Assembly: GCA_947499725.1 (NCBI GenBank)
Contig: CANMPK010000006.1
Location: forward strand, 40,590-104,589
Source: an uncultured Paracoccaceae bacterium
Lineage (GTDB): Bacteria; Pseudomonadota; Alphaproteobacteria; Rhodobacterales; Rhodobacteraceae
Direction: 5' to 3'
DNA length: 64,000 nucleotides
Numbering within the stretch: position 1 is the stretch's first letter; every line of letters begins with the position of its first letter. The position numbers were made by a program, and so were the translations under genes. The notes under the pieces were generated by a model, which was given only the letters and a program-made list of their open reading frames with translations, was not told where the DNA came from and did not search any database. This document shows, one piece after another, positions 5,956-45,627 of this stretch.

Positions 5956-7038
5956 ATGGCACATACTCAAAAATTATCTCCCAACCGCTTTCACGCCTAT
6001 ATGGCGTCTTTCTCAAAACGCGCTTTCGGGACCCCATCTGCAGCAGTTTTGTCCATCGTCATTTTTGGCGCTCTCGGGTATTGGACTTGGCTTGCGGTTG
6101 ATTGGGCCATTTTTCGAGCGGTGTGGTCCGCCGAAAATGTTGCCCACTGTACCGAAGAGGCGGGTGCCTGTTGGTCTGTGATTGATGCGCGCCATCGCCT
6201 GATCCTCTTCGGTCTTTATCCCTATGAGGAACATTGGCGATCTACATTTGCTTGCCTGTCCATTATTGCGACAGTGATCATTTCTTGTTTTCCGGCCACC
6301 TGGACGGCGAAGCGACTCACAAGCCTTTGGGTGGCAGGATTTGCTGCATATTATCTCCTGATGGAAGGGAGCTTGCTGGGCCTTGCGCAGGTTACAACGG
6401 ATGGGTGGGGCGGGCTTTCCCTCACGTTATTTCTGTTTGCGTCTGTTGTTCTATTGGGCATGCCTATGGGGCTTGGCTTGGCGTTGATGCGCCGCTCTGA
6501 GATGCCTGTTGTGCGTAGCTTTGCGGTGATCGTGATCGATACAATTCGTTCATTGCCTCTTTTGACTACACTGTTTACCGCGGCTGTCGTCGTTCCAATC
6601 CTTTTGCCAAGCTGGCTTGAAGGTGACAAGATTTGGCGCGTTATCATCGCGTTTTCTTTGTTCTTTGGCTGTTATCAGGCCGAAGTTTTCAGAGGCGGTT
6701 TTCAGGCCATTCCGAAAGGGCAATTCGAAGCCGGCAAGGCCCTTGGTATAGGGTATTGGAAGATCATGGCGCGCATCATTTTGCCGCAAGTGTTCCGCCA
6801 TGCTTTGCCAAGTACCATCAATATGGTTGTTGTGACGTTTAAAGAGACAGCCATCGTGATCATCATCGGCTTCTTTGATGTACTGGCATCGGCCAAGGCT
6901 GCTTTCGGGACAGGCGAGTGGGCGCCGCATTACATGGAGGTCTATGTCTTTGTCGGTGCGATATATTGGACATTCATCTTTTCGCTCGGCCAGTATGGCG
7001 AGTATTTGAAAGGAAGAATGGCCTTATCGACGCACTAG
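5956..7038 (+). CDS. Amino-acid ABC transporter permease (AapM/BztC-like)
   Basis: EAGKALGIGYWKIMARIILPQVFRHALPSTINMVV signature; 1-bp spacing from upstream permease. Confidence 0.9.
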   Translation: MAHTQKLSPNRFHAYMASFSKRAFGTPSAAVLSIVIFGALGYWTWLAVDWAIFRAVWSAENVAHCTEEAGACWSVIDARHRLILFGLYPYEEHWRSTFACLSIIATVIISCFPATWTAKRLTSLWVAGFAAYYLLMEGSLLGLAQVTTDGWGGLSLTLFLFASVVLLGMPMGLGLALMRRSEMPVVRSFAVIVIDTIRSLPLLTTLFTAAVVVPILLPSWLEGDKIWRVIIAFSLFFGCYQAEVFRGGFQAIPKGQFEAGKALGIGYWKIMARIILPQVFRHALPSTINMVVVTFKETAIVIIIGFFDVLASAKAAFGTGEWAPHYMEVYVFVGAIYWTFIFSLGQYGEYLKGRMALSTH

Positions 7039-7057
7039 CGACCTAGGAGGTGCAAAG

Positions 7058-7095
7058 AAAAGGGGCGAAGAGGTAAAACCCGCTTCGCCCCTTTT
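7058..7095 (+). terminator. Rho-independent terminator after the ABC permease genes
   Basis: AAAAGGGGCGAAG (7058-7070) / CTTCGCCCCTTTT (7083-7095). Confidence 0.85.
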
Positions 7096-7117
7096 CTATT
7101 GGATCAAGTGTTGGGTA

Positions 7118-7333
7118 TTACGAATTCAAATATCCAGCAATGAGTGCAACAAAGGCCCCGATGTGCACGACCATCAGCGCTCGGTCCCTCCACATAAATC
7201 CAACGACAAACCACAGCACGATACCGATGACAAAGGCCGCAATATTCCACGGCACGATATTCATCCCCGTCAAGGCATATCCAATAAGTTGCACGACCGT
7301 CGCAATCCATTTGATCACATCTACGCGTTCCAT
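7118..7333 (-). CDS. Small membrane protein of unknown function (71 aa, about 3 TM helices)
   Basis: MERVDVIKWIATVVQLIGYALTGMNIVPWNIAAFVIGIVLWFVVGFMWRDRALMVVHIGAFVALIAGYLNS; same strand and next to the MBL gene. Confidence 0.7.
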   Translation of the reverse strand: MERVDVIKWIATVVQLIGYALTGMNIVPWNIAAFVIGIVLWFVVGFMWRDRALMVVHIGAFVALIAGYLNS

Positions 7334-7363
7334 ATCTTTACTCTTTCGTTATTTCGTTAGGGA

Positions 7364-8248
7364 TCACAACGCATCAATTGGCACAGTAAGCGTCATGTTA
7401 CCGTCTTTATCTTTGGGAACTTCGCCGGCGCGCATATTGACTTGGAGCGACGGAATAATCAGTTTTGGCATGCCAAGGGTCGCGTCGCGGGCTTCGCGCA
7501 TGGAGACGAACTCTTCACGAGACGCCCCTTCACCAACATGGATATTCGCTTTCTTTTGTGCGCCGATGGTCGTCTCCCAACGGATTGCGCGCCCATTGGG
7601 GCCGTAGTCGTGACATACAAACAGTCGCATTTCTTCAGGGAGAGCAAGAACGCGTTCGATTGAATCGAACAACTCACCGGCATCGCCTCCAGGAAAATCC
7701 GCCCGCGCGGACCCGCCATCTGGCATGAATAATGTATCACCCGTAAAGACCGCATCCCCTATGACATGCACCATACAGGCCGGCGTATGTCCGGGCGTAT
7801 GCATGGCAAAACAAGTCATTTTTCCGACATTATAAACCTGATTGTCCGTGAACAGACAGTCGAACTGTGTGCCGTCCCGTTGGAATTCGGTGCCAGCATT
7901 AAAGATCTTTCCAAAGGTTTCTTGCACAGTCAGGATATGTTCACCGATCCCGATTTTACCGCCCAGTTTTTTCTGTATATAGGGCGCGCCAGATAGGTGA
8001 TCTGCGTGAACATGTGTTTCAATAATCCATTCAAGTCTAAGCCCGCGTTCGGTTATGAATGCGATGATCTGATCCGCGGTATCAAAGCTGAGGCGTGCAG
8101 CCGCGTAATCAAATTGCATGACAGCATCAATGACCGCGCAAGACGTGCTTGCGGGGTCTTTGATGACATAGCTTATTGTGTTGGACTGCGCATCGAAGAA
8201 TGCCGTTACGTCTGGCTTTTGATCCAGAGATGCAATTGGATGTTCCAT
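7364..8248 (-). CDS. MBL-fold metallohydrolase, persulfide-dioxygenase-like (ETHE1/Blh type)
   Basis: THVHADHLSGAPYIQKKLGGKIGIGEHI and MHTPGHTPACMVHVIGDAVFTGDTLFMPDGGSARADFPGGDA motifs. Confidence 0.85.
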   Translation of the reverse strand: MEHPIASLDQKPDVTAFFDAQSNTISYVIKDPASTSCAVIDAVMQFDYAAARLSFDTADQIIAFITERGLRLEWIIETHVHADHLSGAPYIQKKLGGKIGIGEHILTVQETFGKIFNAGTEFQRDGTQFDCLFTDNQVYNVGKMTCFAMHTPGHTPACMVHVIGDAVFTGDTLFMPDGGSARADFPGGDAGELFDSIERVLALPEEMRLFVCHDYGPNGRAIRWETTIGAQKKANIHVGEGASREEFVSMREARDATLGMPKLIIPSLQVNMRAGEVPKDKDGNMTLTVPIDAL

Positions 8249-41651: not shown

Positions 41652-42554
41652 ATGAAATACACTGCACCTGTTGCGGGGCTTTTGGCCTTGGCGGCTTTGC
41701 CCGTGGTCGCGCAAGGCACCACTTACGAACTCGATCTCAGCACCAGCTACGACTGGCGCGGTGGGGCGGACCTCAACGGGTCAGGCCCGCCTCAAGAGAT
41801 CGAAGACTTCGCGCTGGGCCAAATCGGCCTCAGCGTGGCGACCCCTTTGCAAAATGGCCTGCTGCTGCAAACCAGCGCGCGCTACGATCAAAGCTTCGCA
41901 GAGACTGAACTGTTTGGCTTCATCCCAAGCGATGATACCTACGCCTATGGGCTAGAGGCCAATCTGCAACTGGGCCAATCCACCGACACGCGCTATTTCG
42001 GCAGCTACGCCAGCTTTGGCGAAGTCGGGTTCAATCCAGACGACACCGATCAAAACACGCGTTTCTATAGTCTCGGCGCGCAAGCCGCTTGGGCGCAAGA
42101 AGACTGGGTGATTGGCGGCACAGTGGGCCTTCTGCAAAGCCGCGCAGACAATCCTGAATCCATCGACAATGCTGTACTGCTTGGCCTGAACGGCGCCTAC
42201 TATTTCAACGACGGTGACACGCGTGTTTCTGCGTCTCTGGGCTGGATGAATGGCGACCAAGACACAGACTCCGGCAGCGGCCCCGATCCGGTCACTATCT
42301 GGTCTGCTGGTTTTGAAATTCAGCACACGCTCGCCACCCGCTCTAGCCACGCCATCGCATTATATACCGGCGTGGATTGGCTCGAAGTGCGCGAGGGCTC
42401 CTCTGGGGGCTCAACAGAAGTCGTAAACGACACGATCTTCACCGCTGGTCTGCGCATGCGCTTTGGCGCTGGGCATCAAGCCCAAGCACGTACCAATACG
42501 CCACCACTGCCAGACATGCTGCGCGCGATCGGCGCGGTCGTTGCGGTGGATTGA
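41652..42554 (+). CDS. Predicted exported outer-membrane beta-barrel-like protein of unknown function
   Basis: Signal peptide MKYTAPVAGLLALAALPVVAQG; alternating aromatic/polar strands (YELDLSTSYDWRGG, LLLQTSARYDQSF, YAYGLEANLQLG, RFYSLGAQAAWAQEDWVIGGTVGLL). Confidence 0.6.
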   Translation: MKYTAPVAGLLALAALPVVAQGTTYELDLSTSYDWRGGADLNGSGPPQEIEDFALGQIGLSVATPLQNGLLLQTSARYDQSFAETELFGFIPSDDTYAYGLEANLQLGQSTDTRYFGSYASFGEVGFNPDDTDQNTRFYSLGAQAAWAQEDWVIGGTVGLLQSRADNPESIDNAVLLGLNGAYYFNDGDTRVSASLGWMNGDQDTDSGSGPDPVTIWSAGFEIQHTLATRSSHAIALYTGVDWLEVREGSSGGSTEVVNDTIFTAGLRMRFGAGHQAQARTNTPPLPDMLRAIGAVVAVD

Positions 42555-43914: not shown

Positions 43915-43935
43915 GCAAACTGCTTACGAATTTAG

Positions 43936-43965
43936 AAAGGCGCTTGCTGCGGCAGGCGCCTTTTT
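43936..43965 (+). terminator. Rho-independent terminator after rplA
   Basis: AAAGGCGC-ttgctgcggcag-GCGCCTTTTT (one-nt offset in arm). Confidence 0.82.
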
Positions 43966-44130
43966 ACATTTAAGGGTCAAAGCGATCCTAAAGGGGGTAA
44001 GTTGACCCATTCGTGTAGATTTTTTCAAAGAATTCCCCTTTTTTAAACAAATTTCGACGTCACAATGTCCGCAAGCCATTGGTGTGCCTAAAACATGCCA
44101 CCCGATATTTGATGAGTATGAGGTGCAATT

Positions 44131-45207
44131 ATGCCAACAACGTTTAGTGTCCTCTCTTTGGGTCAGTTCGCAGACATCGACCCAACCGAAGGCAACAACA
44201 ATGCCGAAAACGCCGCCTCTTTGGTGGGGGAGTCTTTCGGTACGGCGTCTGATCCGCTGTTTAACAACGAACAGACCTTCTCTTCGATCAGCCACTCTGG
44301 GGGCGGTTCGACCTATTTCGATCAAAACCAATGGTCATCAAGCGATCAGTTCTCGATCAACGGCAGTGGGTCTTTCACTTTCGACTCCTCTGTCGTCTAC
44401 AACGCCACCATCACCTACACCGATGGCACGACCGACACGATCACCGCCGTCGTCTTCCAAGACACCAACGGCAACACGTTCCTCGCGCCAGAGTTCTCTG
44501 CCAACGCAGATCAGGCGGCTCTCGAGGCCGGTCCAATCCAGTCTTTGACTCTGGATAGTCTGGCGGGCTCAAACTTCTTGGGCATGACCGCGAACCGCCA
44601 AGATTGGGATGTCGTGACCTGCTTTGCCAAGGGAACGCATATTCTAACGCCGAACGGCGAATGCCGGATCGAAGATCTCAACGTCGGCGACCTTGTCGAA
44701 ACCCGTGATGGCGGTGCTCAGAAGATCCAATGGATCGGAACGACCACGCGCAAAGTCACACCAAAGCTTGCGCCAATCCGCATCACTGCGGGCGCATTGG
44801 GGCAGGGCCTGCCAAAGCGCGATCTGCTTGTGTCTCCACAGCACCGTATGCTTGTGCGCTCTCGTATTGCGCAGCGCATGTCAGACTCGGGTGAGGTTTT
44901 GATTGCAGCCAAGAAACTGCTGGATCTGCCGGGTGTCATGGTGGCTTCAGAGTTTGAAGAGATCACATATTTCCACATTCTCTGCGAAGACCACCAAATT
45001 CTATTCGCAGAAGGGGCAGAGGCAGAGTCTTTCTACCTTGGTCAAATGGCACTGCAGGCATTGGATGCCGAGGCGCTGGAAGAGGTCAAAGAGCTCTTCC
45101 CAGAGCTGCTGGATCAAGATCACGTGCCCGTGCGCCCAATTGCAAGCGGCGCGCAGGCCAACCGCTTGATCGAGCGCCACAAGAAGAACAACCAGACCTT
45201 GATCTAA
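44131..45207 (+). CDS. Hint-domain protein (Hedgehog/intein-type autoprocessing module; Hint_2-like)
   Basis: C-terminal half VVTCFAKGTHILTPNGECRIEDLNVGDLVETRDGGAQKIQWIGTTTRKV...LLVSPQHRMLVRS...FHILCEDHQILFAEGAEAESFYLG; catalytic Cys in CFAKGTHI and DxG/SPxHRM blocks. Confidence 0.85.
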   Translation: MPTTFSVLSLGQFADIDPTEGNNNAENAASLVGESFGTASDPLFNNEQTFSSISHSGGGSTYFDQNQWSSSDQFSINGSGSFTFDSSVVYNATITYTDGTTDTITAVVFQDTNGNTFLAPEFSANADQAALEAGPIQSLTLDSLAGSNFLGMTANRQDWDVVTCFAKGTHILTPNGECRIEDLNVGDLVETRDGGAQKIQWIGTTTRKVTPKLAPIRITAGALGQGLPKRDLLVSPQHRMLVRSRIAQRMSDSGEVLIAAKKLLDLPGVMVASEFEEITYFHILCEDHQILFAEGAEAESFYLGQMALQALDAEALEEVKELFPELLDQDHVPVRPIASGAQANRLIERHKKNNQTLI

Positions 45208-45349
45208 AGGCTGATCAACCGGATGCGCAGTTTGGCGTGATCTGAAATTTCTAAAGCGCGTGCTGCTGTGATTGTTTGTGGCCGCGCGCGCTTTATGTTA
45301 TACTTGTCTTAACCTTTTGAGCGCCCGCAGAAAATATTGCGGTTTTACA

Positions 45350-45610
45350 GGCAAGGCGTCGTCTTGCCTCTTGCGCTGTGCATTAATCCAAACTAAATGA
45401 TCCTGTACGATCCAGCGTGCGATTCTTCGTGCGCTGTTTTGTATTTCGTCCAAGACGGTGAGTGAGGGTTCCCCTCTTAATATCTTGCCTGAGACGGGAA
45501 AGACCAGATTTACCGAGGTATTTCCTCGGGCGATTTTGGTTCAGCCCCGTAATTCGGACCTGAACGCTGGGTTTTGCCCAGCAAATATGAGCCGGGGGGC
45601 TTTGCCTCCC
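45350..45610 (+). ncRNA. Structured rplJ (L10) leader candidate
   Basis: Hairpins: GGCAAG/CTTGCC (45350-45368), CAGCGTGCGA/TCGTGCGCTG with 2 GU (45413-45436), CCGAGG/CCTCGG (45513-45529), GTTCAG/CTGAAC (45539-45565), GCTGGG/CCCAGC (45566-45582), GGGGGGC/GCCTCCC (45594-45610). Confidence 0.6.
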
Positions 45611-45627
45611 AAATTTGGAGTAAAACT

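Follow-up and report, generated by a model that had tools for sequence, protein, structure and literature searches.

Why does a gene for a Hint (intein/Hedgehog-type) protein lie between the ribosomal protein genes rplA and rplJ, and what might its product do? We address these questions for a window of 64,000 nucleotides of DNA from an uncultured Paracoccaceae bacterium, to which all coordinates given without a locus identifier refer (Table 1). The answer that we favour, with moderate confidence, is that the gene encodes an accessory and probably secreted protein, in which a beta-rich N-terminal domain is joined to a C-terminal autoprocessing Hint_2 domain, and that this protein cleaves itself and has no ribosomal role.

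The initial annotation had recognised a Hint autoprocessing gene at this position, and both profile and structure searches agree with it. The Pfam profile PF13403 (Hint_2) matches over positions 1–146 of 147 with 175.9 bits (E=8.2e-52), the curated cut-off being 28.4 bits. The start codon is supported by alignment, as an MPTTF-type start is kept in the orthologues, and a GAGGTG ribosome-binding site can be made out by eye directly 5' of it. A full-length AlphaFold2 model built with 35 orthologues has a mean pLDDT of 81, with values above 90 across most of the Hint part and below 50 solely at residues 154–161, just ahead of Cys164. In Foldseek searches with this model the matches at E <0.001 were inteins and intein-like domains alone (6mwy, 6tmm, 6y75, 6mx6, 2lwy and 6riz), of which 6mwy was the best (E=8.1e-5), and 6mwy, 6tmm, 2lwy and 6riz were at probability 1.00. 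The predicted fold is the Hint horseshoe expected of the HINT superfamily, and the sequence pattern of that superfamily is present as well, with C164 as the predicted position-1 nucleophile and S235-P-Q-H238 as a block B of the TxxH type.

Table 1. Features of the Hint gene and its flanks (positions in the 64,000-nucleotide window)
Feature	Coordinates	Strand	Basis
rplA terminator hairpin, upstream cassette boundary	43934..43965	+	14-bp stem, then T run
Hint_2 autoprocessing protein gene, 358 aa	44131..45207	+	ORF, Pfam, orthologue alignment
N-terminal beta-rich domain, residues 1-161, no named family	44131..44613	+	AlphaFold2, 52-member alignment
Linker of low confidence, residues 154-161, just 5' of predicted cleavage site	44590..44613	+	pLDDT <50
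Hint_2 domain, residues 163-304	44617..45042	+	Pfam PF13403; intein/BIL fold
Cys164 codon, predicted nucleophile, block A (CFAKG)	44620..44622	+	orthologue and Hint_2 alignments
SPQHR motif, residues 235-239, equivalent of intein block B TxxH	44833..44847	+	orthologue alignment
Glu299-Ser300, where inteins have terminal His-Asn	45025..45030	+	alignment of 44 Hint_2 sequences
Helical C-terminal tail, residues 305-358, recurrent in protein family	45043..45204	+	AlphaFold2, alignment
Hairpin 3' of Hint stop codon, possible cassette terminator, no clear T run	45252..45295	+	inverted repeat
Conserved rplJ leader region, downstream cassette boundary	45363..45627	+	85-94% DNA identity

The Hint motifs had also been read as intact, and degenerate catalytic residues in relatives had been named beforehand as an argument against autoprocessing. 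No such degeneration is seen in the orthologues: C164, S235, H238, R239, H282, H288 and E299 are invariant in 35 of 35, whereas the mean column identity is 57%. When the comparison is extended to 44 Hint_2 sequences, the Cys and His238 are each present in 42 and Glu299 in 43. The dN/dS ratio is approximately 0.18, 0.06, 0.05 and 0.14 in four close orthologue pairs, which shows purifying selection on the gene. Together, the invariant catalytic residues and the low dN/dS argue that the active site is still functional and no relic.

The end of the Hint domain is of a different kind from that of the inteins. With class 1 inteins and A-type bacterial intein-like (BIL) domains the protein shares the fold and blocks A and B, but these end in His-Asn, where the Hint_2 proteins have Glu-Ser/Thr; the position after Glu299 is S or T in 43 of the 44 Hint_2 sequences, and Asn occurs at the intein-end position in none of the 44. 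The same difference is apparent by eye in an alignment with an RTX protein of Ruegeria pomeroyi, whose published intein-like domain ends YNFEVEDFHTYIADGNRVHN (PMC2953401), whereas the Hint protein has YFHILCEDHQILFAEGAEAES there, with Glu-Ser in place of His-Asn. Without a terminal His-Asn, neither cyclisation of a C-terminal Asn nor splicing is to be expected. B-type BIL domains have the intein motifs except the C-terminal motif, are marked by self-cleavage at either the N- or the C-side, and have been reported to cleave at the N-side (PMC7765530). In its motifs, as this published description gives them, our domain resembles the B type, all intein motifs being present save the C-terminal one. 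The likely mechanism is that Cys164 would make an N-to-S acyl shift with the help of Ser235-xx-His238, and that the thioester at Cys164 would then be hydrolysed or attacked by a small nucleophile, so that the 163-residue N-terminal part would be freed from the Hint domain and tail. By analogy with B-type BIL domains, the tested examples of which reportedly came from Rhodobacter species, the protein most likely cleaves itself before Cys164 and releases the N-terminal domain, and we count the low-confidence linker just ahead of this residue in favour of cleavage.

Beyond the Hint domain the AlphaFold2 model places tail helices at residues 305–310, 313–322, 324–328 and 340–352, and LFPEL and PARP-type motifs are conserved here in the 35 orthologues. 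Any roles for this tail are guesses, such as a secretion signal or the binding of a nucleophile. This conserved helical tail occupies the place of the Hedgehog sterol-recognition region, which makes a Hedgehog-like transfer conceivable: the Cys164 thioester, rather than being hydrolysed, would be attacked by a specific lipid, sugar or amine bound by the tail, and the C-terminal adduct would anchor the N-terminal domain to a surface. The order of a signal-like N-terminal part, Hint domain and tail is also that of Hedgehog proteins, and N-side chemistry alone is predicted, as in Hedgehog (PMC7664689). However, there is no known adduct, no similarity between the tail and a sterol-binding region is recognised, and the activating Asp of Hedgehog was not located by structure-based alignment; in addition, the sterol-recognition region and the cholesterol link are features of the Hedgehog Hog part, and the N-terminal domain here is a different one. 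We therefore consider a transfer of this kind unlikely.

A further alternative to self-cleavage is that the Hint domain has lapsed catalytically and acts at the C-terminus of an exported protein as a module for folding or secretion. There are 13 Hint_2 genes in the genome with differing N-terminal parts, one of them encoding an RTX protein, and the Cys and His are kept in ten of these copies. The three degenerate paralogues (L018:3861-4883, L010:1606-2403 and L019:4692-5759), which have lost the catalytic Cys or His, indicate that the domain can persist without these residues and that a non-catalytic role exists in the Hint_2 family, and they count against the reading that we favour. The invariance of the catalytic residues among the 35 orthologues, well above the average column, points the other way, and a lapsed domain in the present protein seems to us improbable.

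The Hint protein belongs to a known, abundant and poorly studied family. With other Rhodobacteraceae Hint_2 proteins it shares the domain, the active-site pattern and the arrangement of a variable N-terminal part followed by a C-terminal Hint domain and tail; it differs in its N-terminal domain, which is single-copy in this genome and unlike the N-terminal parts of the other 12. Marine Rhodobacteraceae often have about ten copies each of this kind of Hint protein. Matches were found in 33 of 60 relatives (own genome included), all within Rhodobacteraceae, and in a class-wide sample Hint_2 was above the cut-off in 5 of 190 genomes, three of those five being Rhodobacteraceae. Both PF13403 and RTX have been reported as over-represented in fast-responding marine Rhodobacteraceae (PMC12487129), and in this setting a small protein of just two domains, whose active site is strictly conserved, is of interest. 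PADLOC gave no match, and the PHROGs matches were all weak and mostly across the start of the Hint domain.

For the N-terminal part the initial annotation had reported no obvious family; indeed no Pfam or NCBIfam family is above cut-off, yet the domain recurs in 27 of 130 Rhodobacteraceae genera. The AlphaFold2 model of this part, built with 52 relatives, is compact and beta-rich (pLDDT 89.3, pTM 0.85), and neither the PDB nor the viral models contain a match to its fold at E <0.001. A MiiA/Rib-like motif at residues ~91–106, present in 50 of 52 members, was considered and set aside, as it is below cut-off and amounts to a short beta-hairpin resemblance rather than membership. Residues 1–161 are acidic (pI ~4) and contain neither Cys nor Lys, and no hydrophobic Sec-like signal sequence is seen at their start. 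The domain is constantly associated with Hint, as 54 of 54 named loci also encode one, although in two of these (L149 and L178) the two parts are split by a frameshift. Five loci, mostly from Shimia (L166, L168, L172, L174 and L175), have two copies of the N-terminal domain, then RTX-type repeats, then Hint.

RTX-type repeats lie between the N-terminal domain and Hint in 20 of the 54 loci, in proteins of up to ~1550 aa, and this architecture makes secretion likely; export would probably be by type I secretion. The lack of a Sec-like start, the acidic Lys- and Cys-free N-terminal domain, and the two PrtD-type T1SS transporters encoded in the genome (G000 C1:444614-446218 and C2:181685-183313) are also counted in favour; cleavage, secretion and the fate of the N-terminal domain are inferences. 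In Ruegeria pomeroyi, RTX proteins dominate the exoproteome, and no peptides were seen from the intein-like domain that one of them contains (PMC2953401). The protein studied here differs from type I-secreted RTX proteins in having no PF00353 match, and so no RTX nonapeptide repeats of its own, although its relatives join the same N-terminal domain to such repeats and Hint; we count this against our reading. A 215-aa stand-alone Hint gene in the same genome adjoins genes for a PrtD-type ABC transporter and HlyD (L011:4442-8788; G000:C1:449040-449501), and an RTX ORF is located a few kb from it. We rejected this adjacency of Hint and T1SS genes as a conserved signal, as the case in this genome is not kept in congeners, and this too weighs against our reading. 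A more far-reaching suggestion is that the N-terminal domain is a new secreted family of marine Rhodobacteraceae, always processed by a C-terminal Hint domain whose tail gives the specific nucleophile; the system would then parallel, in bacteria, the C-terminal modification of the Hedgehog type. As a whole this is in our estimate decidedly improbable.

The flanks of the gene bear on how it came to lie in a ribosomal locus. As the initial annotation had it, rplA ends with a terminator (−23.9 kcal/mol, z −5.65), and a hairpin-like end is present after rplA in congeners too. At the other side of the gene, the region 45240–45310 folds with −24.4 kcal/mol (z −3.6). Approximately 265 nt ahead of rplJ are 85–94% identical in DNA in eight of eight congeners, those with an occupied gap and those with an empty one alike, and this conservation supports the separate rplJ leader, and with it the independent cassette, that had been proposed. 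The leader has no Rfam family match, the search having returned one match at chance level. Neither a sigma-70-like promoter for the Hint gene nor an upstream motif shared among orthologues was recognised, the former being counted against the explanation that we favour. A recent mobile-element insertion at this site was rejected, given that there are no flanking direct repeats and no odd G+C.

Among nine genomes of the genus the site is empty in four (G003, G004, G007 and G008), where the gap is only ~400–490 nt. The congeners G005 (65% identity) and G001 (45%) have a homologous Hint gene in the gap, G006 has an MFS gene, and G002 has an HxlR-type regulator among others. In G007 an orthologue (60%) is found outside the empty gap (L136:1080-5693 and 6284-7366), on a contig that also encodes a MobA/MobL relaxase and two tyrosine integrases, and this is the only copy placed so.

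A survey of 112 Rhodobacteraceae genera with rplA and rplJ on one contig and strand places these observations in a wider frame. The gap has a median length of 386 nt and exceeds 1 kb in 45 of the 112. Among 52 gap proteins scanned there were nine family 2 glycosyltransferases, four Hint_2 proteins, three RTX proteins and three cytidylyltransferases, and further cargo included two-component proteins, a DMSP lyase, a transposase and MFS genes, on either strand (loci L081-L129). The rplA–rplJ gap (43966–45362 in the window) is thus a permissive slot for accessory genes across Rhodobacteraceae. Such a slot explains the presence of surface and secreted genes inside a ribosomal locus, and cautions against guilt by association. 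Two of the four Hint_2 cargo proteins (L099 and L123) have no close match to the present N-terminal domain, so Hint genes have probably entered the gap more than once. A location unique to this strain, which had been set beforehand as grounds for refutation, is not what we find: 14 of the 54 named loci with the N-terminal domain are in the gap, in Litoreibacter, Marivita, Amylibacter, Neptunicoccus, Roseovarius and others. Mapped on the tree, presence in the slot requires 4 changes, compared with 11.5 with shuffled labels, and a single clade of slot members is not rejected (p-AU 0.10), so that one origin of the slot copies is neither shown nor refuted. The picture that emerges is of an old and recurrently kept location, with losses, replacements and relocations.

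It might be argued that the location is itself functional, with expression tied to the ribosomal operons and, for example, to growth rate. The gene is co-directional with rplA and rplJ wherever they flank it, the slot is used by the 14 loci that cluster on the tree, and the over-representation of PF13403 in fast-responding Rhodobacteraceae (PMC12487129) would fit. However, inheritance of an old insertion gives the same clustering, the gene lies behind the rplA terminator, is missing from several congeners and is elsewhere in other genomes, and the gap holds many unrelated genes on both strands, so that we regard a functional location as very unlikely. A ribosome-linked function was set aside in view of the varied gap cargo and the empty sites in congeners. 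The special link to the ribosomal locus that the initial annotation implied is not confirmed, given the 13 Hint_2 genes, the unrelated cargo, the orthologues elsewhere and the congeners without the gene. Least probable of all, and extremely so, is a system resembling polymorphic toxins, in which Hint modules do occur (MafB) and here would release a C-terminal toxin, as just ~54 residues follow Hint and these are conserved rather than polymorphic, and the protein has no toxin family match and the cassette no separate immunity-like gene.

Two minor observations concern the neighbouring part of the ribosomal locus. Between nusG and rplK, positions 41652–42554 encode a protein of 300 aa that has no Pfam match and begins like a signal peptide; it is perhaps a second accessory insertion in this locus. 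Amylibacter, Neptunicoccus and a related MAG have, in addition to the Hint gene in the rplA–rplJ gap, another one ~1.2 kb upstream of rplK (L149:2893-3375, L159:2891-3373 and L162:2878-3366).
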